A stretch of DNA of 64,000 bases from Haladaptatus sp. R4 (GTDB lineage Archaea > Halobacteriota > Halobacteria > Halobacteriales > Haladaptataceae), in assembly GCF_001625445.1 (NCBI RefSeq), contig NZ_LWHG01000005.1:1-64000 (forward strand), in the 5' to 3' direction. Under the pieces are notes generated by a model that saw only the letters and a list, made by a program, of their open reading frames with translations, was not told the DNA's origin and ran no database searches. The stretch's first letter is position 1, and every line of letters begins with the position of its first letter. Made by a program: the position numbers and the translations under genes. Of this stretch, positions 17,411 through 60,863 are shown piece after piece.

Positions 17411-17772
17411 AGACGGTTGAAACCGCTAGTCAACGGGTAGTTCGGCGCCGAAGTGTGGAAATGTTTAACATTATAAATACACATCTAAACAGAGTGTAAC
17501 TGTATCGAAACCCGATACATTCGGTTTACATTCCTGCTAAGATACCCCCTTAATCAGTCTATAGTAATGGGGGTAGGGAGAAATGTCGAAGACAAGAGCC
17601 AGTCGTTTCCAGCAGGTGGGACGGCGGGGCCTATAGGACACACCCATGAACTACCTTGACACAATAGACGGACGTGCGACGGTTCGTTCTGGCTTGCTTC
17701 ACGATACGACGGGGCGTGCCAGCTCGGAACGACAGTACGAGCAGTCCGCGAGAAAAACGGAGGAGACGTAGG
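17411..17772. other. Intergenic region upstream of glmS with a short inverted repeat
   Basis: No coding sequence is seen. TACCCCCTTA at 17543-17552 and TAATGGGGGTA at 17565-17575 can pair to a C5/G5 hairpin with a 12-19 nt loop. It lies about 200 bp before glmS and may be a terminator for the upstream gene or a regulatory element. A start at 17674 would put about 33 extra residues before Cys2 and is not credible. Confidence 0.4.
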
Positions 17773-19586
17773 ATGTGTGGAATTATCGCCCGCATTGGCG
17801 AAGGAGATGCGATTACGAAGCTCGTTACGGGACTCGAAAATCTCGAATATCGAGGTTACGATTCGGCCGGAGTCGCCGTCCAGAACGGGTCAGGGATATC
17901 GGTCTACAAGCGTTCGGGCCAGATCTCCGAACTGAAAGACAGTATCGTCGGGAGCGTCCCCAAAGGGAACGTCGGGATCGGTCACACGCGATGGAGCACG
18001 CACGGACCACCGACCGACGAAAACGCTCACCCCCACACGAGCGAGACGGAAAACGTCGCCGTGGTTCACAACGGTATCATCGAGAACTACAACGAACTCA
18101 AAGAGTGGCTCAAAGGGGAAGGCTACGAGTTCACGAGCGATACCGATACAGAGGTCATTCCACATCTCTTCGAATACTATCTCGAAGACGCGTCCAGCAT
18201 CGAAGACGCGTTCCGCCAAACCATTCGCGACCTCGAAGGCAGCTACGCGGTCGCAGCGATCGTCGATGGCGTACACGCCATCTACGCGGCCCGACAGGGA
18301 TCGCCGCTCATCCTCGGACTGGACAACAACGAGTACTACCTCGCCAGCGACGTGCCCGCGTTCCTCGACCACACTGATCGGGTCGTCTACTTCGAGGACG
18401 GCGACGTCGCCGTCCTCGACCGAACGGCGTGACGATGACCGACCTCGACGGGAACATGGTCACTCGTGACGTGGAACGGATCGACTGGGACCCCGAGGAC
18501 GCCGGTAAAGGTGGCTACGAGCATTACATGCTCAAGGAGATCAACACCCAACCGAACGCGCTCGCCAACACCATCGAAGGACGAGTGGAGGACGGGGAAG
18601 TCAGCCTCGAAGCCTTCCCGGACGGGACGTTCGCCGATGTAGACGACGTTCAGTTCGTCGCCTGCGGGACGTCGTATCACGCCGCGCTGTACGGACAGCA
18701 ACTCCTCAACCAGTGTGGAATCCGTGCACAGGCGTTCCGAGCGAGCGAATACGTCGATTCGTCTGCCAGCACCATCACGGAGGACACGTTGGTCGTCGCC
18801 GTTACCCAAAGCGGGGAAACGGCGGACACCCTCGGTGCGCTACGAGGAGCAAAAGAGAAAGGCGCACGAACCGTCACCGTAACGAACGTGATGGGTTCGA
18901 CGGCGGCCCGCGAAGCCGACGACGCGCTGTTCATCCGCGCCGGACCGGAGATCGGTGTGGCCGCCACCAAGACGTTCTCCTCGCAAGCGGTCATGCTCTC
19001 GCTCCTCTCGCTACGACTCGCCGAGGACATCGAGACGGCGACATCGCCGGAGGACCAAGCGGACCTCCTCCGCGACTTGGAGAAACTGCCCGAGCACGTT
19101 CAGGAAGTGCTCGACACCACGGACGCCAAACGGATAGCCAGCCGATACACCGGCAGCGAGGCGTTCTTCTTCATCGGTCGAGGGTTGAACAACGCCGTCG
19201 CCAAGGAGGGGGCGTTGAAGTTCAAGGAGATCACCTACGAGCACGCCGAAGGGTTCGCCTCCGGCGAGTTGAAGCACGGACCGCTCGCGCTCGTAACACC
19301 GGATACACCAGTGTTCGCGCTGTTCAACGGCGTGAAAGACAAGAAGACGCTGCAGAACGCCAAGGAAGCACAAGCACGCGGCGCACCCATCGTCTCGGTC
19401 GCGTGTGCAGGCCACGATTCGGAGAAAATCTCCGATGCGTTCCTCGAAATCCCGAAGACTCACACCGTCTGGGCGGGACTGCTGGCGAACATCCAGTTGC
19501 AGCTAGTGTCCTACTACGCGGCGAAGAATTTGGGTCGCCCGATAGACAAACCGCGAAATCTGGCGAAAAGCGTCACCGTCGAGTAA
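17773..19586 (+). pseudogene. glmS: Glutamine--fructose-6-phosphate aminotransferase (isomerizing), frameshifted
   Basis: Two frames join into a protein of about 604 residues, the normal GlmS length. It makes glucosamine-6-phosphate from fructose-6-phosphate and glutamine, the first step to UDP-GlcNAc. The start MCGIIARIGE places the nucleophile Cys at residue 2, and the glutaminase region shows HTRWSTHGPPTDENAHPH. The second frame carries two SIS domains (VACGTSYHAALYGQQLL, TQSGETADTLGALR, EGFASGELKHGPLAL) and ends KPRNLAKSVTVE. The first frame hits TGA at 18430 after VAVLDRTA. Adding one G near 18427 restores VLDRTGVTMTDLDGNMV. As the enzyme is likely needed and both halves are conserved, I take this for a sequencing error. 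Confidence 0.88.
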
Positions 19587-19811: not shown

Positions 19812-20156
19812 CGTCCGGAGCTCACACGGGAAGAATATTATTATCAGGTGAGTAAACGCGTGGCTAGCCGCCACATAAACGGACGAATTCGACGGTGAGA
19901 AAGAACAAACAAACAGATATGTGGAAATGCCTGAAAGTAGCAATATCGGCCGAGCCAAAACTTATTACTAGGATCGCGGAATAGTAACAAACGTCCCGTC
20001 GTCGCCGTGGCAGACGTCGGCAGGGACAGCTGTCATCCACTCTTCCGAACGTCTAGATGGGAGCCGTGGCTACGGGTAGTTATGGTGAAGGCCGTCGAAG
20101 GGGAGAGCACATTTCGTCTGTCTTCGCGGGAGGATTGGCAGGTGGATTTGGTAGGA

Positions 20157-20180
20157 GTGAGAGAGGTCATTTCGTGTGCT
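20157..20180 (+). repeat. Left arm of 24-bp perfect inverted repeat
   Basis: This arm contains GAGAGAGGTCATTTCGTGTG and is exactly complementary to 20601-20624; the arms are 420 bp apart. It includes one TTTCGTGTGC repeat unit. Confidence 0.85.
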
Positions 20181-20600
20181 TTCTCTCTGAAGAGTGCACT
20201 CATAGGTAGAGATGTGGTTGATCCAACGGCTTTCTCGAAAACTCACCGAGCACACGAAACTGACGAAGTTAGGTTTTAAAAATACGCCTAATACTTTCGC
20301 ATAGAAGATAAAACGGTATTGTCTACTGTAGAGAGAGTATATGTGTGTCTAGCTTTTGTTTTAGAAGATAGAAGATCGGGAGGAAACGGTGGGCACGGTA
20401 GGGTATTTTTCGAAAGAGTAAGAGAGTGGATTTCGTCTGTTCCTGCCGTGTGACGTTAGAGTAGAAACGCTGAAAACGACCATTTCGGAAAATGTCACTC
20501 CTTAAAACTGAGTTTCGTCTGTTTCATGTGCCTGGGGTTGTTTCAAGAACAACCGGAGATTCAGCGTCAAAGCGACGGGTACCCCACTCTCGGACAACAG

Positions 20601-20624
20601 AGCACACGAAATGACCTCTCTCAC
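20601..20624 (-). repeat. Right arm of 24-bp perfect inverted repeat
   Basis: It is the exact reverse complement of 20157-20180. The identity extends well past the ten-base core motif. Confidence 0.85.
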
Positions 20625-20722
20625 TCACCACGACATTCTATGACAAAGTCGAACGGGAAGAGTACATTTCGTCTGTCTTGTTGGAATTACACTTCCCAGT
20701 TTTCAAATAGTTTGCTCCCATC

Positions 20723-20740
20723 CACACCAGTTTCCTTGCT
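20723..20740 (-). repeat. ORB-like element, orphan cluster (reverse)
   Basis: Read on the minus strand it is AGCAAGGAAACTGGTGTG. It faces the two forward copies at 20909 and 20955 across the AT-rich stretch 20741-20908. Confidence 0.55.
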
Positions 20741-20908
20741 TCGTGATCAGACACACACCGGTTTTCCTCTGCTTTTCGATGAGGGCGACCAACTACCGCT
20801 AAAGTCCATCTTTTTAGCCCAAGTAAAAATCCAGTACGGCTATATTGTATATATTGACTAATAAAACATCACCCCGGATAGATCTTCCATGTGTTCTATT
20901 CGCAGGAT

Positions 20909-20935
20909 AGCAGAGGAAACATGGTGTGAGTGTCC
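20909..20935 (+). repeat. ORB-like element, orphan cluster (forward 1)
   Basis: The core AGCAGAGGAAACATGGTGTG resembles the GGAAACGTGGTGTG half of the ORB type at 26.8-28.0 kb. Confidence 0.55.
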
Positions 20936-20954
20936 TACTTAAACCACGAGAGAT

Positions 20955-20980
20955 AGCACAGGAAATCTGGTGTGTCTTCC
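20955..20980 (+). repeat. ORB-like element, orphan cluster (forward 2)
   Basis: The core AGCACAGGAAATCTGGTGTG matches the preceding copy at 17 of 20 positions, including the AGCA lead and the TGGTGTG end. Confidence 0.55.
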
Positions 20981-21016
20981 GAACGGAGATTATCGATGCG
21001 AAAGAGAAGAAGCCCG

Positions 21017-22344
21017 CTATTCCGCGTATTCGGCCACGAAGGCGTCGGCCGTCTCGAACACCTCGTCGGCGGCGTCCGGGTCGCGGGCCTCGGCGGCGAT
21101 GCGAACCAACGGTTCGGTGCCGCTGGCGCGGATGAGGAACCAGCCCTCGTCCAGCGACACGCGGACGCGTCGATGGTCGTGGCGTCTTCGTAGCGCTCGG
21201 TGACGGCGGCCGAGAGGGATTCCATCAGACCGACCTTGTCCTCGACGTGGACGTTCTTCCGCCGGATAGGGTACTCGCCGACGTCGGCCGCGAGCTCCGA
21301 CAGCGACCCGTTTTCGGCGACGAGTTCGGCGAGGCGGCAGGCCGCGAGGGGACCGTCGGGGCAGAGCGTCTGGTCGGCCCAAATCCACGCGCCGGACTGC
21401 TCGCCGCCGAAGACGACACCGGGTTCGGTCGCGCGCTCGGCGACGTACACGTCACCGACCTGCGTCCGCACCACGTCCGCGCCCTGTTCGGCGAGGACGT
21501 CCTCGACGATGAGGCTGGTGTCGACCGGCGTGGCGATCGTTTCACCTTCACCGGCGTGTTGGCGTGCGAACAGGGTGAGCAACACGTCGCCCGAGATGAA
21601 GTCGCCGTTTTCGTCCACGGCCATCATGCGATCGGCATCGCCATCGTGTGCGATTCCGAGGTCCGCGCCGATTGCCGTGACGTGATCACAGAGCGACTGG
21701 CAGTTCTCCGCCGTTGGTTCGCTCGGGCGTGCGGGGAAACGGCCGTCGGGTTGCGCGTTCAGCGTCTCCACGTCACAGCCGAGTTCGTAGAGGGCGTCGG
21801 CGGTGGCCGCACCAGCACCGTTCCCGACGTCGATGACGACGGAGAGATCAGCGGGCGAGACTGCCTCGGCAAGGGTTTCGACGTGTTTGTCGTGTGCCCC
21901 ATCCCAGTGTGTTTCTTCGCCGGTTTCGTCCCAGCTTGCGAGGTCGAACGCCTCGTCCTCGATGATGGATTCGATTTCCGCGCGTTGGTCGGCGTCGAAC
22001 GCTTGCCCGGACGGGTTCCAAAGTTTGATTCCGTTGTCCGTCGCCGGGTTGTGTGATGCTGTGATGGAGACGCCCGCGTCGGCGTCCTGCCACTCGACGC
22101 TTCGAGCGACGGTCGGCGTCGAGGCCAGACCGAGCATCACGACATCGGTTCCACATTCACGGAGACCGGCCGAAAGCGCATCCGCGAGGAATCGTCCGCT
22201 GTCGCGGGGGTCACGTCCGATAACGACGCGCTCGACGCCGGTCGAGGCGAGCGCTCGACCGACCGACAACGCGAGGTCTCCGGTGACTACTTCGCCGACA
22301 GGGCCGCGAATTCCGCTGGTTCCGAACATTGATTCGTACGACAT
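21017..22344 (-). pseudogene. glmM: Phosphoglucosamine mutase-type phosphohexomutase, frameshifted near the C-terminus
   Basis: Joining two frames gives about 442 residues, normal for archaeal GlmM/phosphohexomutase. It should convert glucosamine-6-phosphate to glucosamine-1-phosphate, the step after GlmS. Visible are MFGTSGIRGPVGEVVTG at the start, the phosphoserine loop SITASHNPATDNGIK, the metal loop DGDADRMM, the sugar loop GGEQSGAWIW, and the phosphate-binding RASGTEPLVRI. The last motif sits in the second frame. The break is near 21170, where adding one G gives TTIDGVRVSLDEGWFLIRAS. Substrate could also be another hexose phosphate, but glmS is the nearest upstream-lying gene of known pathway. 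I judge the frameshift a sequencing error. Confidence 0.85.
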
Positions 22345-27471: not shown

Positions 27472-27563
27472 AGAACGCCCACGTAAACGGGCAAAATACC
27501 GTTCCTCTTCTTTTTCGCTCCCGATTCTCTCTCGTCATCAGCTGCTTAGATCGCGTTCCTGAG

Positions 27564-28011: not shown

Positions 28012-28032
28012 ATTTCACTGGAAACGTGGTGT
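28012..28032 (+). repeat. ORB1 copy 8, abutting the orc1/cdc6 start codon
   Basis: Contains TTTCACTGGAAACGTGGTGT and ends two bases before the ATG at 28035, so initiator binding here could repress the gene. Confidence 0.85.
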
Positions 28033-31346: not shown

Positions 31347-33371
31347 TCACTCGTCTTCGAACAGTATTGTCAGCAAGTTGCGCTCTGATGCCCGAAGATG
31401 GCGGTTGAACGTCGGCTGTGAGACTCCGAGCGATTCGGCGATCTCTTGCCCGGTGCTTTCCCGCGGCCACTCGAAAAAGCCGCTCCAGTACGCCGTTTCC
31501 AACGCTTCCGATTGCCGATCAGTGAGGCGGTGGCGCAACTGTGCTCGAAAGTCCTGCTCGGTCTGTACCGGTCGGTCTCGCTTTCGACGGGCGATGAGTT
31601 CCGTGTCGCTGTAGCGATTTTGGAACGTTTCGACGAACAGGCGAACGTCCGCCGTTTGTGGCAACTCGACGGTCAGTCTCGCTTCCCTTCCCTCCGCTGT
31701 CGCAGATTTTGGGATCGCTCCGTGGTCGAGCAGCAACGAGATTACGTTCGTCCCCGTCACCGTGCATTCGAACAAATTTCTCTCGTTATCCCCGGTGACG
31801 TGCCGGATATCGTTGATGATGAGCGACTGGTCGGAAAACGAGACGACGGATTCCGGCGTCGTTCCTTCGGTAGTGAAGAACAGTCGAAGCGTATCGTCCG
31901 TTTCGCGGATAACGCTCTCGAATTCGAACCGACAGTCGGCCATCTTGACGAGCTTGATGAGCGTAAATTGCGGGTCACATACCCGGAACTCCAGCTCTAC
32001 TGCGCTGTCACTCACCAGTGCTTTCTTGCTTTCGACGGCATTGATGGCGTAGGCGATCGCTTTTCCGACGTCTTCGAGCAGGGATTTTTCTTCCGAATCG
32101 AACATACCCGGTCCGCCAGCATACACGGTGAGAACGCCATAGATACTCCCTCCGTAGACGAGGGGAACGCTGATTGCCGCCCGATATCCCCTTTTGAGTG
32201 CTTCTTGTCGCCACGTTTCGTACGGCGGGTCACCGAGGAGATCATCGTCAATTGCTGGTTCCCTCTCCCGTGCCGCCGTCCATGCGGTCGTTTGTGCTGT
32301 CTCGGCCCCTGTCTCCGAGAGTTCGTCGAGAAACTCCTGCTCGTTACCCACCCACGTCCGTGCCGAGAGTTTGTCGGTCGTCGAGTCGTACTCCCCGATC
32401 CATGCAAATCGATAGGGGTCCGCGTTCGTCAACCGCTTGCAGACGGCGTGCTCGATGCCACTTCGCGTATCCATGTCGATGAGCGTCGTCAGTACGTCTC
32501 GAACGACCGATTCTCGGCGTTGTGTGCAGTTGAGTATCGCTTCGGTATCCGACAGGGCCGCTTCTTGCGTTGAAAGTTCCCACTCACGATCGAGACGGGT
32601 AAGTGCCGTCTCGGCGTTCGAAACGAGTACCTCTGTGAGATTCGATTTGCTCTCGTCGTACTCGTTCTGTGAACCCTCGGTGACGATCAGTACACCGTGT
32701 TTTCCGAGCGGAAGGGCGAGACGTCGCCCGTAGTGGTCATTTCGGCTCTCGCTGCACGTTTCCCCTTCGAGAAATGCTTTCCACCCAAGACCGGCGTCGA
32801 TGTCGAACAGTTCGTCGTCCGGTTCGGAAACTCCTTCCCATGCGACCGGTCGGAGCGCACCCTCTTCGCTGTCGTATCGTGCCACGATTGCGGACGAGTA
32901 GCCGAGTTCCGATTCCGCAACGTTGACCGTCGTTTCGGCAATCGCGTCCTCTTCCTCGGCGTCTATCAGCCGTTTCTGTGCGTCTTGTACCGCCGAGAGT
33001 CGTCTATCGTGGTGAATCCGTTTCGCAGTGTGGTTCATTCTACTCGCCAATGCACGGCCACCACCCGCTGCTGGTATCCATTCCGCGAGGTCGTTATCGA
33101 GGACGTTCTCGACGGTCCGGTCATCCGCATCGCAAAAGAGAAAACGCCTGATAGATGGGTGTGACTGTCGAACGTCCTGCAAGAACGAAACGACGTCCAT
33201 TCCGCGGATCGTTGTCGTACAAACGACACAGTCGGCTATTTCGAGTATCTCGTGGATATCTTCGACGCCTGCCGTCGTTTCGACGGTGATACCCGATCGC
33301 TCTCGAAGCACCGTTGTCACTCCCTCGTCGTCGGGCGGGGAAACGAAGAGGACGCGGACTGCTTCAATCAT
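31347..33371 (-). CDS. Bat-like sensor-regulator (receiver-like, GAF domains, HTH_10)
   Basis: A 674-residue one-component regulator. An N-terminal receiver-like region (MIEAVRVLFVSPPDDEG, ending near 115) is followed by a short coiled segment (AVQDAQKRLIDAEEEDAI), a first GAF-like domain (about 135-260), a second GAF domain (about 280-440, including SVPLVYGGSIYGVLTVYAGGPGMF), the Bat regulatory domain, and HTH_10 at the C-terminus (LTDRQSEALETAYWSGFFEWPRESTGQEIAESLGVSQPTFNRHLR). GAF domains usually bind small molecules, haem or chromophores; the ligand here is unknown. ATG at 33371 is chosen because it starts the receiver-like strand. Confidence 0.85.
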   Translation of the reverse strand: MIEAVRVLFVSPPDDEGVTTVLRERSGITVETTAGVEDIHEILEIADCVVCTTTIRGMDVVSFLQDVRQSHPSIRRFLFCDADDRTVENVLDNDLAEWIPAAGGGRALASRMNHTAKRIHHDRRLSAVQDAQKRLIDAEEEDAIAETTVNVAESELGYSSAIVARYDSEEGALRPVAWEGVSEPDDELFDIDAGLGWKAFLEGETCSESRNDHYGRRLALPLGKHGVLIVTEGSQNEYDESKSNLTEVLVSNAETALTRLDREWELSTQEAALSDTEAILNCTQRRESVVRDVLTTLIDMDTRSGIEHAVCKRLTNADPYRFAWIGEYDSTTDKLSARTWVGNEQEFLDELSETGAETAQTTAWTAAREREPAIDDDLLGDPPYETWRQEALKRGYRAAISVPLVYGGSIYGVLTVYAGGPGMFDSEEKSLLEDVGKAIAYAINAVESKKALVSDSAVELEFRVCDPQFTLIKLVKMADCRFEFESVIRETDDTLRLFFTTEGTTPESVVSFSDQSLIINDIRHVTGDNERNLFECTVTGTNVISLLLDHGAIPKSATAEGREARLTVELPQTADVRLFVETFQNRYSDTELIARRKRDRPVQTEQDFRAQLRHRLTDRQSEALETAYWSGFFEWPRESTGQEIAESLGVSQPTFNRHLRASERNLLTILFEDE

Positions 33372-35174: not shown

Positions 35175-35304
35175 TACTCGTCGGTTCTGTTGGCTGACGA
35201 CCGAACTCGCCCCTCAGTTACTTCGGCCTTCTCTCTTTGGCGCCCTCTCTCTCTCTCTCTCTTTGCCCCTCTCTTTATACACATGTCTCTCGAACTAGTC
35301 CAGG

Positions 35305-35487
35305 ATGTTCGGTCGAACACGACGGTTTTGGACTGGGGTGGCTTTACTGGTAATTGGTGCTGCTTTACTCTTCGAAAGCTACATCCCAGGATTCGACGGG
35401 CCAATCGTGCTGCTCGCAGTCGGTGTGATCGTACTCGCTGCCGGAACGCTCATGATCGCTGTCGAGCGGGGACAGCGTCCCGTCTAA
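35305..35487 (+). CDS. Small two-helix membrane protein
   Basis: A 60-residue protein with basic N-terminus (MFGRTRRFW) and two membrane helices (VALLVIGAALLFESYIPGF and IVLLAVGVIVLAAGTLMIAV). No family is recognised. Length and composition look genuine. It lies head to head with the halocyanin gene (130 bp between) and just before the parA upstream repeats. Confidence 0.55.
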   Translation: MFGRTRRFWTGVALLVIGAALLFESYIPGFDGPIVLLAVGVIVLAAGTLMIAVERGQRPV

Positions 35488-35553
35488 CGCTGTCGTATAG
35501 CTACTCAGGAGTTCCTCGCTTGCCCCTCCATCAGTACCAATTGTGCCAAAGCT

Positions 35554-35615
35554 GTTTTGCTAGACGAACCGTCAAAACCGGTTTTGACAGTTTTTCTCTC
35601 TTTTCTGGTTTTGCT
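35554..35615. repeat. parA upstream iterons with 18-bp perfect palindrome
   Basis: The palindrome GTCAAAACCGGTTTTGAC is at 35571-35588. From its right arm, 8-base units follow every nine bases: GTTTTGAC (35581), GTTTTTCT (35590), TCTTTTCT (35599) and GTTTTGCT (35608). Another GTTTTGCT at 35554 is exactly three periods upstream. The same units occur in an array at 49389-49460. The site lies 163 bp upstream of parA and could be its operator or part of a partition site. Confidence 0.75.
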
Positions 35616-35750
35616 CACGATGTGTTGTTCGATTCTCTCTTCCCATCAACTCGGAATATTCGTCCCTTGAAGCCCGCAACCCTCCTTTTGAGCTTCCTTT
35701 GTGAATGTCTGACGCGGTTTTATGTGGTTTGGATGGTTTTTCGATTTTGT

Positions 35751-36542
35751 ATGTCCGATACAGCCAAAATAGCCGTCTCGAATCAGAAAGGCGGGGTGGG
35801 AAAGACGACGGTAGCTATCAACGTCGCCGGGGCGTTGAGTCATCGGGGGAACGATGTGCTGTTTGTGGACCTCGATCCACAAGGGAACGCAACTGAAGGA
35901 CTGGGGTTGGAATCGGAGTACGAGGCACAACCACCGACCCTGTTCGACGCGCTGACCGATCACGAGGTGCGCGGGGACGTCGATTCGCTCATCGTCGCCC
36001 ACGAGGAGATGGACGTGCTTCCGAGCAATATCGACATGACCAGTGTTGAACCCGAACTGACGATGGCGATGCGCGGCCGAGAGCGGCTCGTACAGGTCCT
36101 CGACGCGCTCGACGCCGACTACGATGTCATTATCATCGATTGCCCGCCGTATCTCGGCAATCTCACTGACAACGCTTTGCTCGCCGCTAAAAACGTACTC
36201 ATCCCCGCGCTCGCCGAATCGACGAGTAAACGCGCGCTGGAAATCCTGTTCGACCAGATGGAGGTACTGGAGGCGGAGTACGACACACAAGTTCGCGATC
36301 TCGGTGTCGTCGCCAATCGCGTCGAGGCGACCAACGAGGCGGACTCGATGCTCAAGTGGTTCGATGAGGCGTTCACCGATATTCCCGTTTGGGAGGTTCG
36401 AAAACGGGTAACCCTCCAACGTGCGTTCTCGGCTGGCTGTTCGATTTTCGAGTTCGAGGAGGAGTGTGACATGGCCGCCGTTTTCCTCTCTATCGCCGAG
36501 GACCTCGAACGTCAACTCGGGTTGGTGGAGGTAACCGCATGA
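35751..36542 (+). CDS. ParA family partition ATPase
   Basis: A 263-residue ParA/MinD-type ATPase of the small (type Ib / Soj-like) class without an N-terminal HTH. The deviant Walker A KGGVGKTT is within IAVSNQKGGVGKTTVAINV, followed by VLFVDLDPQGNATEGLGL, and Walker B reads YDVIIIDCPPYLGNLTDNAL. It should form ATP-dependent patches on DNA that move a bound cargo such as a centromere. Its stop overlaps the next gene's ATG (ATGA), so the two are coupled. The ATG at 35751 is taken; a longer frame upstream crosses the iterons and shows no ParA homology. Degenerate 9-bp T-rich units run up to the start codon. Confidence 0.88.
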   Translation: MSDTAKIAVSNQKGGVGKTTVAINVAGALSHRGNDVLFVDLDPQGNATEGLGLESEYEAQPPTLFDALTDHEVRGDVDSLIVAHEEMDVLPSNIDMTSVEPELTMAMRGRERLVQVLDALDADYDVIIIDCPPYLGNLTDNALLAAKNVLIPALAESTSKRALEILFDQMEVLEAEYDTQVRDLGVVANRVEATNEADSMLKWFDEAFTDIPVWEVRKRVTLQRAFSAGCSIFEFEEECDMAAVFLSIAEDLERQLGLVEVTA

Positions 36543-37018
36543 GCGACGAGAGCCGTGCCGACCGTCTTCGGCGTCGTCGCCGTGCACAGCGCGAGCAACA
36601 GGAAGACTCCGAAGAACCGTCCACACAGTCCGAACGATCAAAGTCATCCGAACCATCAGAATCATCTGAACCATCCGAACCATCCGAACTCTCCAAACCG
36701 GACGAAGCGTCCGCAAGCGACGAATCGGTCGGATTTTCCCGTACGCGGAACGTGAACGATACCACTGGTTCTTCCGCTGTGAGCGACTCCGAGAGCGTGA
36801 AAGCGACTCGCGTCGGCACCTACATGTATCTCCCCGAGAACCAGCGTTCCACGCTCGACTTCCGCTACAAGGAGCTCAATCTCGCGTACGAACGAGCCGT
36901 CGGCGACGAACTAGAGAAGAACCGCCATTTCTATCCGCTGGTCGTACAGGCCGGACTCGAAGCACTCGACGGAGTGGATGGAGAAGAGATTAGAGAACGT
37001 CTCATGCAGTTCGAGTGA
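36539..37018 (+). CDS. ParA-coupled partner protein with SEP repeats
   Basis: A 159-residue protein. It has a basic N-terminus (RADRLRRRRRAQREQQ), a disordered Ser/Glu/Pro region (about 30-58; SEPSESSEPSEPSELSKPDE, encoded by 9-nt repeats), and a folded C-terminal domain (about 88-159) starting RVGTYMYLPENQRSTLDFRY and predicted mostly helical. It overlaps parA by four bases. By position it is the likely ParB-equivalent, binding the centromere and stimulating ParA, but it has no ParB or ribbon-helix-helix signature that I recognise. The basic head could contact ParA or DNA. Confidence 0.7.
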   Translation: MSDESRADRLRRRRRAQREQQEDSEEPSTQSERSKSSEPSESSEPSEPSELSKPDEASASDESVGFSRTRNVNDTTGSSAVSDSESVKATRVGTYMYLPENQRSTLDFRYKELNLAYERAVGDELEKNRHFYPLVVQAGLEALDGVDGEEIRERLMQFE

Positions 37019-53775: not shown

Positions 53776-55077
53776 TCACCAGTCTTGGACACGGCGTTGG
53801 TCGAGATTATCATTCAGTTCGGAAAATCGGTTATCGTCGATAAGGATATCGTACACGAGGTCAGAATCTTCGACAAGCCGATTGAGGAGATTGATGCCAC
53901 CGGAACGACCTCGATTCTCCTTTTGGATGTCGATAAGGCCGAGAAATGCTTGCTCTTTCAAGATATCACGGAAGCGCCGCTCGGAGAGTGTGTCTAAATC
54001 GATTGTCCTGCAAATATTCGAATACTGGCGGTAGACGAGTTGTGTGGCGAATTCGTCTTGTGCCGAGTTGTTTGTGAGAATAGAGAGTGCTAAGAGCACT
54101 GCTTTTGCTTGTTGTGGAACCCCCTCGATAAGTTCCTTGAAGCGATCCTTTTCTGCTTCAGTACGCGCCTCTCGGACATGCGCTTCAGTTACCTGCTCTG
54201 CATCCTGCTTATATGCTAAATTGCCCGAATGACGAAGGATGTCAATTGCCTTTCGTGCATCACCGAAGTCCTGAGCCGCAAAAGCCGCACAGAGCGGGAT
54301 AACGTCGCTCGTTAATACATCGGATTGGAATGCGTCTTTCCGGTTTTCCATGATCTGCTCCAACTGAGTGGCGTCATACGGTTGGAAGGCCATCTCCTTT
54401 GGCTGCAGACTCGACTTTACTCGTTCGTTCAGATCATCTGCCCATTCGATCTTGTTACTGATCGCGATAACTCCGATACGACAGGATGTGCTACCGGATT
54501 CACCGGCTCTAGACAGTTTCATCAATATGCTATCGTCAGTCATCAAATCTGCTTCGTCGAGGATGATGATGGCAACGTCATATTGGGAATCCAAGACTGT
54601 CCAGAGTCGCTCATAGTAGGCAGCAGTAGAGAGACCAGTTTCAGGAACTCGAAGCTGTGTTACATCCGGTTGGTTGTAATGGCGCGCAAGGGTCGAAACT
54701 GCTTGTGTCTCGGTGCTATGGGTTGAACAATCGACGTATGCTGTGCCAATACTGACCCCGTCTTTCGCTAACTCCTTTGCACGGGTTGTGACGTGGCGCG
54801 AAACCAGTGATTTCCCTGTTCCCGTTTTCCCGTAGATAATTACGTTTTCAGGTGAGTGCCCATTGACGGCACTTCGCAGTTCTTCCGCTAACATTCGAAT
54901 TTCGTCATCTCGGCCGACGATCCGGTCGGCACTTGGGACGTGATCGATTTCGAGCAAGCCCTTATTTGAAAAGATGTTATCTTCTTGCTCGAAAATTTCA
55001 CGAGCAACGTCGAACCCCTCACCACCATCTGTTCGTAGCTGGGATTGGTTTGGCTCGTTACCACGAGACTGGTTCAT
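53776..55077 (-). CDS. Orc1/Cdc6 replication initiator (origin 2)
   Basis: A 433-residue AAA+ initiator. IFSNKGLLEIDHVPSADRIVGRDDEI is the usual lead-in, Walker A is GKTGTGKS in NVIIYGKTGTGKSLVSRHV, and Walker B is VAIIILDEADLM. The winged helix is at about 325-433 (ERRFRDILKEQAFLGLIDIQKE). It should bind the ORBs in the region to its right. It is clearly a paralogue of, not identical to, the proteins at 28035 and 59652. The N-terminal 20 residues are Gln/Asn-rich and unlike the others. Confidence 0.92.
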   Translation of the reverse strand: MNQSRGNEPNQSQLRTDGGEGFDVAREIFEQEDNIFSNKGLLEIDHVPSADRIVGRDDEIRMLAEELRSAVNGHSPENVIIYGKTGTGKSLVSRHVTTRAKELAKDGVSIGTAYVDCSTHSTETQAVSTLARHYNQPDVTQLRVPETGLSTAAYYERLWTVLDSQYDVAIIILDEADLMTDDSILMKLSRAGESGSTSCRIGVIAISNKIEWADDLNERVKSSLQPKEMAFQPYDATQLEQIMENRKDAFQSDVLTSDVIPLCAAFAAQDFGDARKAIDILRHSGNLAYKQDAEQVTEAHVREARTEAEKDRFKELIEGVPQQAKAVLLALSILTNNSAQDEFATQLVYRQYSNICRTIDLDTLSERRFRDILKEQAFLGLIDIQKENRGRSGGINLLNRLVEDSDLVYDILIDDNRFSELNDNLDQRRVQDW

Positions 55078-59551: not shown

Positions 59552-59590
59552 ATCGTATTTAATAGTACTTAAACGAATGGAGCACCGGAA

Positions 59591-59620
59591 GCATTGGAAC
59601 TGGTGGTGGTGGGGTTTTAT
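59591..59620 (+). repeat. ORB3 degenerate copy beside the initiator gene
   Basis: GCATTGGAACTGGTGGTGGT, then GGGGTTTTATA; 30 bp before the orc ATG. Confidence 0.5.
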
Positions 59621-59651
59621 ATCGAAGGCAACTCTTGCTTATTATACACTC

Positions 59652-60863
59652 ATGTCGGATTTCGATTTCACACCAAACGAGTTTCCCTTTAAGAACAGGA
59701 ATGTATTAATGGAGGACTACACTCCGAATACACTCGTTGGAAGAGATGACGAACTCACAGAGTATCATTCCGTGTTACAGCCTGCAATCAATGGCGAACA
59801 GCCTAATAACATTTTTCTCTATGGAAAAACTGGTGTCGGAAAAACTGCTGCGACACGATTTTTGCTTGATCGGCTGGAGCAAAACTCCGTTGAATACAAT
59901 GTCGATATTAAAACGGCGGTCGTCAATTGTGATGGATTCGACACTAGCTACCGTGTTGCCGTCCATCTCGTCAACAAATTCTGCCCGCCCGAAGAGCAGA
60001 TTAGCGATACTGGTTATTCGCGTTCGCAAGTTTATGATGCGCTATGGAATGTTCTCGATTCCTGTGGTGGAATTTTTATCCTTGTTCTCGACGAGGTTGA
60101 TCACCTTCAGGATGAATCGATTCTCTACCAACTCTCTCGTGCTCGTGAAAATCGAAACATCGAAAGCGCTCGTATCTCCGTCATCGGGATAAGTAACGAT
60201 CTCACTTTCCGGGACCACCTCTCTCCCAAGACTCGTTCGTCCTTGTGCGAACGTTCTATTTCGTTTTCTACATACGATGCGAACGAACTCCAAGAAGTTC
60301 TCCGACAGCGTGAGACGGCCGCCTTTACAGATGGTGCGCTTGAAGATGACGTTATTCCTCTTTGCGCAGCCTATGGCGCACAAGAGTCCGGCGATGCGCG
60401 TAAAGCCCTTGACTTACTTCTTCAAGCAGGTGATCTCGCCCGGAAAGAAGATGCCGAGATCGTAACGGAAGATCATGTCCGGCGTGGACGCGACGAACTT
60501 GAGGAGGAGGAAGTCGCTGTGGGAATTGTCTCGTTAAACCAGCACGAGCAACTGGTTCTGTATGCTCTTACGACATTCGAAGCAAATGAGGAGACGCCGA
60601 TACGTACGCGATCACTGTACGAGCGATATACCACACTCGCTGAAATGGCGGCGATGAGTCCCAATTCGTCACGATGGATGCGAGCTCAGTGCGATACCCT
60701 CGAAATGCTCGGGCTCACGGAAAGCAATCACAGGAACGAAGGACTGGCCGGTGGAAGTTACCGAGAGCACGTTCTGGCGCAGGATTTAGATTTGGTTGTT
60801 CAGGCGCTCGACGGAACGATTATGCAGACCGGTATTCATGATAGTATTGAAAAGCATATCTGA
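59652..60863 (+). CDS. Orc1/Cdc6 replication initiator (origin 3)
   Basis: A 403-residue AAA+ initiator. FPFKNRNVLMEDYTPNTLVGRDDELTEY leads to Walker A GKTGVGKT, Walker B IFILVLDEVDHL, and a C-terminal winged helix (about 305-403). It is the most divergent of the three at the N-terminus and lacks the 'LEI.H.P' lead-in. The ATG at 59652 is preferred; an upstream frame from 59577 begins MEHRKHWNWWWWGF, which is simply the translated ORB copy. It should bind the ORB3 set just upstream. Confidence 0.92.
   Translation: MSDFDFTPNEFPFKNRNVLMEDYTPNTLVGRDDELTEYHSVLQPAINGEQPNNIFLYGKTGVGKTAATRFLLDRLEQNSVEYNVDIKTAVVNCDGFDTSYRVAVHLVNKFCPPEEQISDTGYSRSQVYDALWNVLDSCGGIFILVLDEVDHLQDESILYQLSRARENRNIESARISVIGISNDLTFRDHLSPKTRSSLCERSISFSTYDANELQEVLRQRETAAFTDGALEDDVIPLCAAYGAQESGDARKALDLLLQAGDLARKEDAEIVTEDHVRRGRDELEEEEVAVGIVSLNQHEQLVLYALTTFEANEETPIRTRSLYERYTTLAEMAAMSPNSSRWMRAQCDTLEMLGLTESNHRNEGLAGGSYREHVLAQDLDLVVQALDGTIMQTGIHDSIEKHI

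Follow-up and report, generated by a model that had tools for sequence, protein, structure and literature searches.

An orphaned array of ORB-type boxes without a G-string, predicted to be part of a plasmid replication origin in Haladaptatus

We suggest that a field of seven TTTCGTSTGY repeats between glmS and glmM on a plasmid of Haladaptatus sp. R4 makes up the section of a plasmid origin that an initiator would bind, that this origin belongs to an ORB class without the G-string, and that its initiator gene has been lost, a prediction that we hold with a probability of about 0.85. In this prediction, the array would consist of ORB-type boxes arranged in two facing copies of an orc promoter/origin module around an AT-rich centre, where an orc gene would be expected; intact relatives carry the orc gene inside a bracket of boxes.

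All coordinates refer to the window, which is the analysed stretch of 64,000 nucleotides at the start of contig NZ_LWHG01000005.1 (C5). The ends of this contig overlap by 127 bp, so that it closes into a circle of 78,310 bp; this plasmid is collinear with a 78.9-kb circle of Haladaptatus sp. DYF46 and with a 79-kb contig of another relative. The plasmid has its main origin at 26.8-28.0 kb, ahead of the orc gene at 28026, and the boxes there are of the canonical TTTCACTGGAAACGTGGTGTG type. The GC-skew maximum of the plasmid, at 27473, coincides with this origin and not with the repeat field, which speaks against our reading of the field. A close homologue of this orc gene (92-98% identical) is present in the stretches retrieved from six of eight relatives; in the seventh it lies elsewhere on the same contig (98%), and the retrieved stretch of the eighth showed none.

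An earlier reading of the window from sequence alone had described seven copies of the motif in both orientations in non-coding DNA, and exact copies (n = 7) indeed lie where it had placed them, spanning about 565 bp (Table 1) in the interval between the convergent genes glmS (+) and glmM (-), which holds only unsupported mechanical ORFs. The genome-wide search that this reading had proposed gives 38 exact copies in the 4.9-Mb assembly, 7/38 of them in the field, and at the background rate seven copies would fall within 566 bp with a Poisson probability of ~1e-21, so that a chance cluster is excluded. The mixed orientation and irregular spacing of the copies do not fit the regular direct repeats and unique spacers of a CRISPR, in agreement with the earlier reading. 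Because the boxes lie on both strands and the TTT/CGT codons are invariant at third positions, a coding repeat (S-T-F-R-L/V) was rejected. An RNA element was also rejected, no Rfam match being found within the window, as was a phage or virus element: there was no phage match, and a scan of viral contigs with GAGAGNNNATTTCGTSTGY returned 19 contigs with a single match each and no cluster.

Table 1. Features in and around the glmS-glmM interval of the window
Feature	Position	Strand	Exact TTTCGTSTGY copy	Remarks
glmS C-terminal part, left neighbour	18429-19586	+		
ORB-type site 1	20102-20124	+	20112+	GGAGAGCACATTTCGTCTGTCTT; PWM from other genera only, model R2
Dyad left arm	20155-20277			orc promoter/origin module facing right; pairs with 20504-20626
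ORB-type site 2, distal box of left module	20158-20182	+	20170+	inverted repeat, PWM, model R2
Site 3, tandem half-sites and TATA-like box	20250-20280	-	20250-	GCACACGAAACTGACGAAGTTAGGTTTTAA as read on +
AT-rich centre	20281-20420			~58% AT, candidate unwinding region; expected place of orc gene
ORB-type site 4	20421-20443	+	20431+	highest score of all sites; PWM, model R2
Site 5, same tandem half-site and TATA element, pointing left	20501-20531	+	20513+	GCACATGAAACAGACGAAACTCAGTTTTAA on -
Dyad right arm	20504-20626			same module facing left
ORB-type site 6, distal box of right module	20599-20624	-	20602-	inverted repeat, PWM, model R2
ORB-type site 7	20657-20679	+	20667+	PWM, model R2
Second orphan origin	20719-20976			ORBs on - (~20721, ~20752), AT-rich stretch, ORBs on + (~20906, ~20954); type GCAGAGGAAACRTGGTGTG
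Deletion junction	20944-20953			orc of DYF46 (L111 3154-4380) missing here, boxes kept on both sides
glmM, right neighbour	21017-22344	-		frame shifted near 21165; plain ORF extends to 20935

The motif is linked to one type of initiator. A 27-nt sequence model of the sites, comprising the seven window sites and a copy in DYF46, gives no further match below E = 1 in the genome it came from and finds clear clusters, usually one each, in Halorussus genomes. There, each cluster immediately precedes an orc1/cdc6 gene, and these genes are of a distinct type. The proteins encoded by such genes have the Cdc6 AAA+, lid and winged-helix domains and form a single monophyletic clade (support 0.97), and the gene is found in 60/292 haloarchaeal genomes sampled, in 25 genera. 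Among Haladaptataceae, a cluster is present in 9/9 genomes with an orc gene of this subfamily versus 2/19 without (Fisher 8e-6). At least one box lies upstream of the gene at 44/44 pooled subfamily loci (30 class-level best hits together with family and named-plasmid loci, some places being counted under two ids) versus 0/20 loci of other Orc1/Cdc6 types; since the motif was refined on sites beside subfamily genes, the 44/44 count is partly built on the loci that it describes, and the 30 class-level loci had been retrieved through the protein and not through the motif, most of them being absent from the building of the PWM. In a box-model search, strong box sites were found in 47/60 genomes with the subfamily gene versus 25/232 without, box counts being dependent on the threshold. 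Named plasmid examples come from Haloferax mediterranei (pHME132, with the subfamily protein WP_004060577.1), Halocatena marina, two Haladaptatus strains, QDMS2 and DYSN1, and Halorussus aquaticus and Halorussus caseinilyticus. The two versions of the box in the window, TTTCGTGTGC(TTT) and TTTCGTCTGT(CTT), are both common among the sites of that search. A PWM built from other genera without the window sequence recovers 5/7 sites of the field and marks a single further position on the plasmid, sites 3 and 5 (the tandem half-site boxes) falling below its cut-off. The same PWM marks nothing near the other orc genes fetched from the same genome (L174-L184).

Combining the 44/44 versus 0/20 linkage with the single clade, we assign TTTCGTSTGY as the predicted ORB-type initiator site of this one Orc1/Cdc6 subfamily. 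The sequence-only reading had held that the motif is not the ORB. This holds for the G-string ORB of the neighbouring cluster and has to be given up for ORB-type boxes at large, the motif being tied to a different Orc1/Cdc6 subfamily. Its proposal that the field binds an origin-associated protein is very probably correct as judged from this linkage; for its other proposal, a chromosome-organising protein, we found no evidence.

The G-string has been described as essential for oriC1 and as a contact of the AAA+ domain. Read on the reverse strand, the box of the field is GAACAGACGAAAYGTACTCTC and keeps the ORB core GAAACGT, which is common to TTTCACTGGAAACGTGGTGTG, and a pyrimidine tract, TACTCTC, occupies the position of the G-string, so that the window boxes fall outside the G-string ORBs of halophiles. 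The G-string ORB pattern occurs in 5/44 upstream regions of the subfamily (1-2 each) versus roughly half of the 20 loci of other Orc types that served as controls (3-7 each). A class without a G-string thus offers a natural test of how this element can be dispensed with. Published predictions of haloarchaeal origins used the G-string as a criterion (PMC3528665, PMC4595724) and because they demanded it, they may have missed origins of the G-string-less subfamily. Two box sequences, taken literally, and their reverse complements were found in no relevant paper of the open-access literature, to which the search was confined, subscription literature lying outside it. Like the orc/cdc6-adjacent ORB origins of haloarchaea (oriC1 and other families; PMC3528665), the field has an AT-rich stretch surrounded by repeated boxes, a box sequence that follows the Orc subfamily, and the core GAAACGT; it differs from them in having TACTCTC instead of the G-string and in having no orc gene.

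The layout of the field also matches that of intact subfamily loci. The inverted repeat reported by the sequence-only reading is perfect but longer than the 24 bp that it had given, i.e. 26 bp (20155-20180 / 20601-20626). Two further copies had correctly been described as related over about 31 bp; these are sites 3 and 5, which form a second inverted pair with the same dyad centre as the pair of sites 2 and 6, the offset between the inner and the outer pair being 89 bp on both sides. The core decamers of all seven sites correspond to the consensus. The element ACGAAAC-N-ACGAA-N4-GGTTTTA, which combines two half-sites in tandem with a TATA-like box, comes after a box at many intact loci and lies ~50-120 bp ahead of the start of orc. 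This element was matched in 18/44 subfamily loci, with a distance of 82-86 bp from TTTCG to ACGAAAC in 6/18 of them and a wider full range. Site 3 matches this promoter-proximal element, both arms of the dyad carry the order of ORB, ~84 bp, and tandem half-sites with TATA that is found upstream of subfamily orc genes, and on the plasmid of the window the element occurs in these two arms only. The pairs 2/6 and 3/5 flank an AT-rich centre that is a putative site of unwinding and contains at 20294 CTTTCGCATAG, which resembles CTTYGYRTAGCGGCAAAC of Halorussus origins; the AT-richness and this match are both modest. In most intact loci, boxes on the + strand upstream and on the - strand downstream of orc bracket the gene. 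Given this arrangement and the module layout shared by both arms, the field looks like a bracket from whose centre the gene is missing, with one module inverted and duplicated. The 64-bp spacers between the inner and outer sites are 39% identical across the arms; if the arms go back to one ancient inverted duplication, the boxes could have stayed alike while the spacers diverged, and independent modules or later gene conversion would fit equally.

Based on known archaeal initiators, we suggest that an Orc1/Cdc6 protein would bind the boxes, open the AT-rich DNA and load MCM. It would also repress its own promoter, and the box over the orc promoter suggests such autoregulation. The field itself is accompanied by no orc gene of any kind in the interval, and a tblastn search of the glmS-glmM interval (E 10) gave no remnant of a cognate orc. 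The subfamily is absent from the assembly, in which the best Orc is only 36-42% identical to it; as the draft assembly is 95.85% complete, a cognate orc could sit in a gap. With neither an adjacent orc nor a subfamily member in the assembly, we classify the field as an orphaned origin or box array rather than as a working origin. In published work, origins depended on their own cdc6 (PMC3936714), and since no subfamily member is encoded in the assembly we would expect the field to lie dormant unless it is supplied with an initiator in trans. As the most likely state we consider that the field was orphaned recently and is probably dormant.

The adjoining ORB-like cluster that the sequence-only reading had pointed out is real and has a similar history. 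In DYF46, the glmS-glmM interval holds a 408-aa orc1/cdc6 gene, and the origin upstream of this gene aligns to window 20721-20952 and the box downstream of it to 20945-21003. The window thus lacks exactly the orc gene of DYF46 and keeps the flanking boxes, which makes the neighbouring cluster an orphan origin itself. Close relatives of the DYF46 Orc are found on Halorussus plasmids, and an H. halophilus plasmid has the order glmS-orc-orc. The same glmS/glmM pair is present in eight relatives with an interval that lacks the field, and the field as a whole is missing from eight congeneric genomes except for one copy in strain DYF46. The sequence-only reading had counted absence from relatives against its own proposal; we read it as reflecting origin loss or turnover, not chance.

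Arrays of this class without a full-length orc recur in other haloarchaea. At locus L298 (967-1522) the box bracket surrounds a truncated orc, at L301 (191-1522) two unrelated small ORFs take the place of orc, and in other genomes the scores of some orphan sites equal those of intact sites, with full consensus. Orphan arrays abut a different origin in the window, in G010 and at L314, L320 and L322. Boxes of the class without an orc of their own border directly on boxes of another type of origin at L314 710-2018, L320 1444-1978, L322 1300-1560 and L231 6618-6790, a recurrent juxtaposition that the window shows as well. Such arrays display a step of origin turnover in which the initiator is lost and the boxes are left behind.

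An orphaned origin could be a relic of recent date, or an initiator could still bind it in trans. The intact core decamers of all seven sites together with the full-scoring orphan sites elsewhere agree less well with a relic in decay than with continued use. As the main rival to a dormant origin we consider it possible, though rather improbable, that the array is kept as a functional decoy or regulator that titrates an Orc1/Cdc6 acting in trans, from another or an incoming plasmid, and in that way contributes to incompatibility or copy control. The recurrence of full-consensus orphan arrays, with at least one strong site in 25/232 haloarchaeal genomes without a full-length orc, and the location of several of them next to a different origin would agree with this, and titration by an ORB-rich region has a published precedent (PMC3936714). 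On the other hand, the assembly encodes no trans-acting initiator of matching specificity, and the closest relatives do without the field, which is thus not generally needed. Extended to the class, the tentative proposal would be that orc-less, G-string-less arrays are selected elements that are recognized in trans or act as decoy or incompatibility devices against plasmids carrying the subfamily Orc, often fused to a second origin as composites of two specificities.

Three further explanations fare much worse than the orphaned origin. The perfect 26-bp inverted repeat, and the comparison with the DYF46 interval, in which the window has an insertion of ~515 bp flanked by similar 25-bp motifs, bring to mind a MITE, i.e. 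an element of ~470 bp that has the 26-bp inverted repeats as its ends and was inserted next to an origin. However, there is no other copy in the genome, the genus or the plasmid and phage collections, the supposed terminal repeats contain boxes that occur singly upstream of orc genes, and further sites lie outside the repeats, so that this reading is largely refuted and very unlikely. Iterated sites near an origin, with no obvious repeat array beside parA, could alternatively form a parS-like plasmid centromere for the ParA-family protein encoded at 35190-36542; this is highly improbable, as the plasmids of DYF46 and G006 keep parA and its neighbour without the field and the motif tracks the orc subfamily. 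Transcription factor operators for glmS or glmM might be expected as inverted sites in an intergenic region, but glmS and glmM converge, neither gene starts within the interval and the field is thus upstream of neither, and with eight relatives having the gene pair and no field this explanation is scarcely credible.

Among characterized systems, a close parallel to the orphaned origin is oriC2D of Haloarcula hispanica (PMC3936714). It, too, is a dense array of boxes next to an origin, may bind an initiator without being an active origin itself, and is thought to titrate Cdc6E. oriC2D adjoins its cognate cdc6E, whereas the field lacks a cognate gene and its role in titration is putative. Dormant or deficient origins, such as oriC4 of Haloferax mediterranei (PMC4595724) and the Cdc6D- and Cdc6G-associated origins of Haloarcula (PMC4441112), similarly illustrate that modules turn over, are damaged and fall silent on multi-origin replicons; these origins keep their adjacent cdc6, whereas the field keeps boxes only.

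Several minor observations concern the remainder of the plasmid. Two further orc modules at window 53776-55077 and 59577-60863 have their own box types (AACGTCGGAAACGTGGGGGG and GCACTGGAAACCCGGGGTGGGG, respectively) and are missing from the plasmids of the two closest relatives. A ParA-family gene and a small following ORF (35190-37018) are conserved across the plasmid family; no centromere-like repeat array was found beside the gene. glmS (17674-19586) is frameshifted near 18430 and glmM (20935-22344) near 21165, the frames being open in relatives, and split orc genes also occur elsewhere in the assembly, at C2:50122 and C10:22253; the split glmS, glmM and orc genes suggest sequencing errors in the draft. 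At 31877-31899, a stray 18-bit match to the box PWM, probably due to chance, lies inside a gene for a BAT/HTH_10 regulator. A small upstream ORF (MSxRRRGRRxLGQLSS in relatives) gave only a short match, in G006. Finally, upstream of orc on the Halorussus caseinilyticus plasmid (L267), the boxes have TTTGGAGTGTTC for TTTCGAGTGTTC, and the inverted and promoter-proximal copies are changed alike, an apparent case of a box set that coevolved as a whole within one origin.
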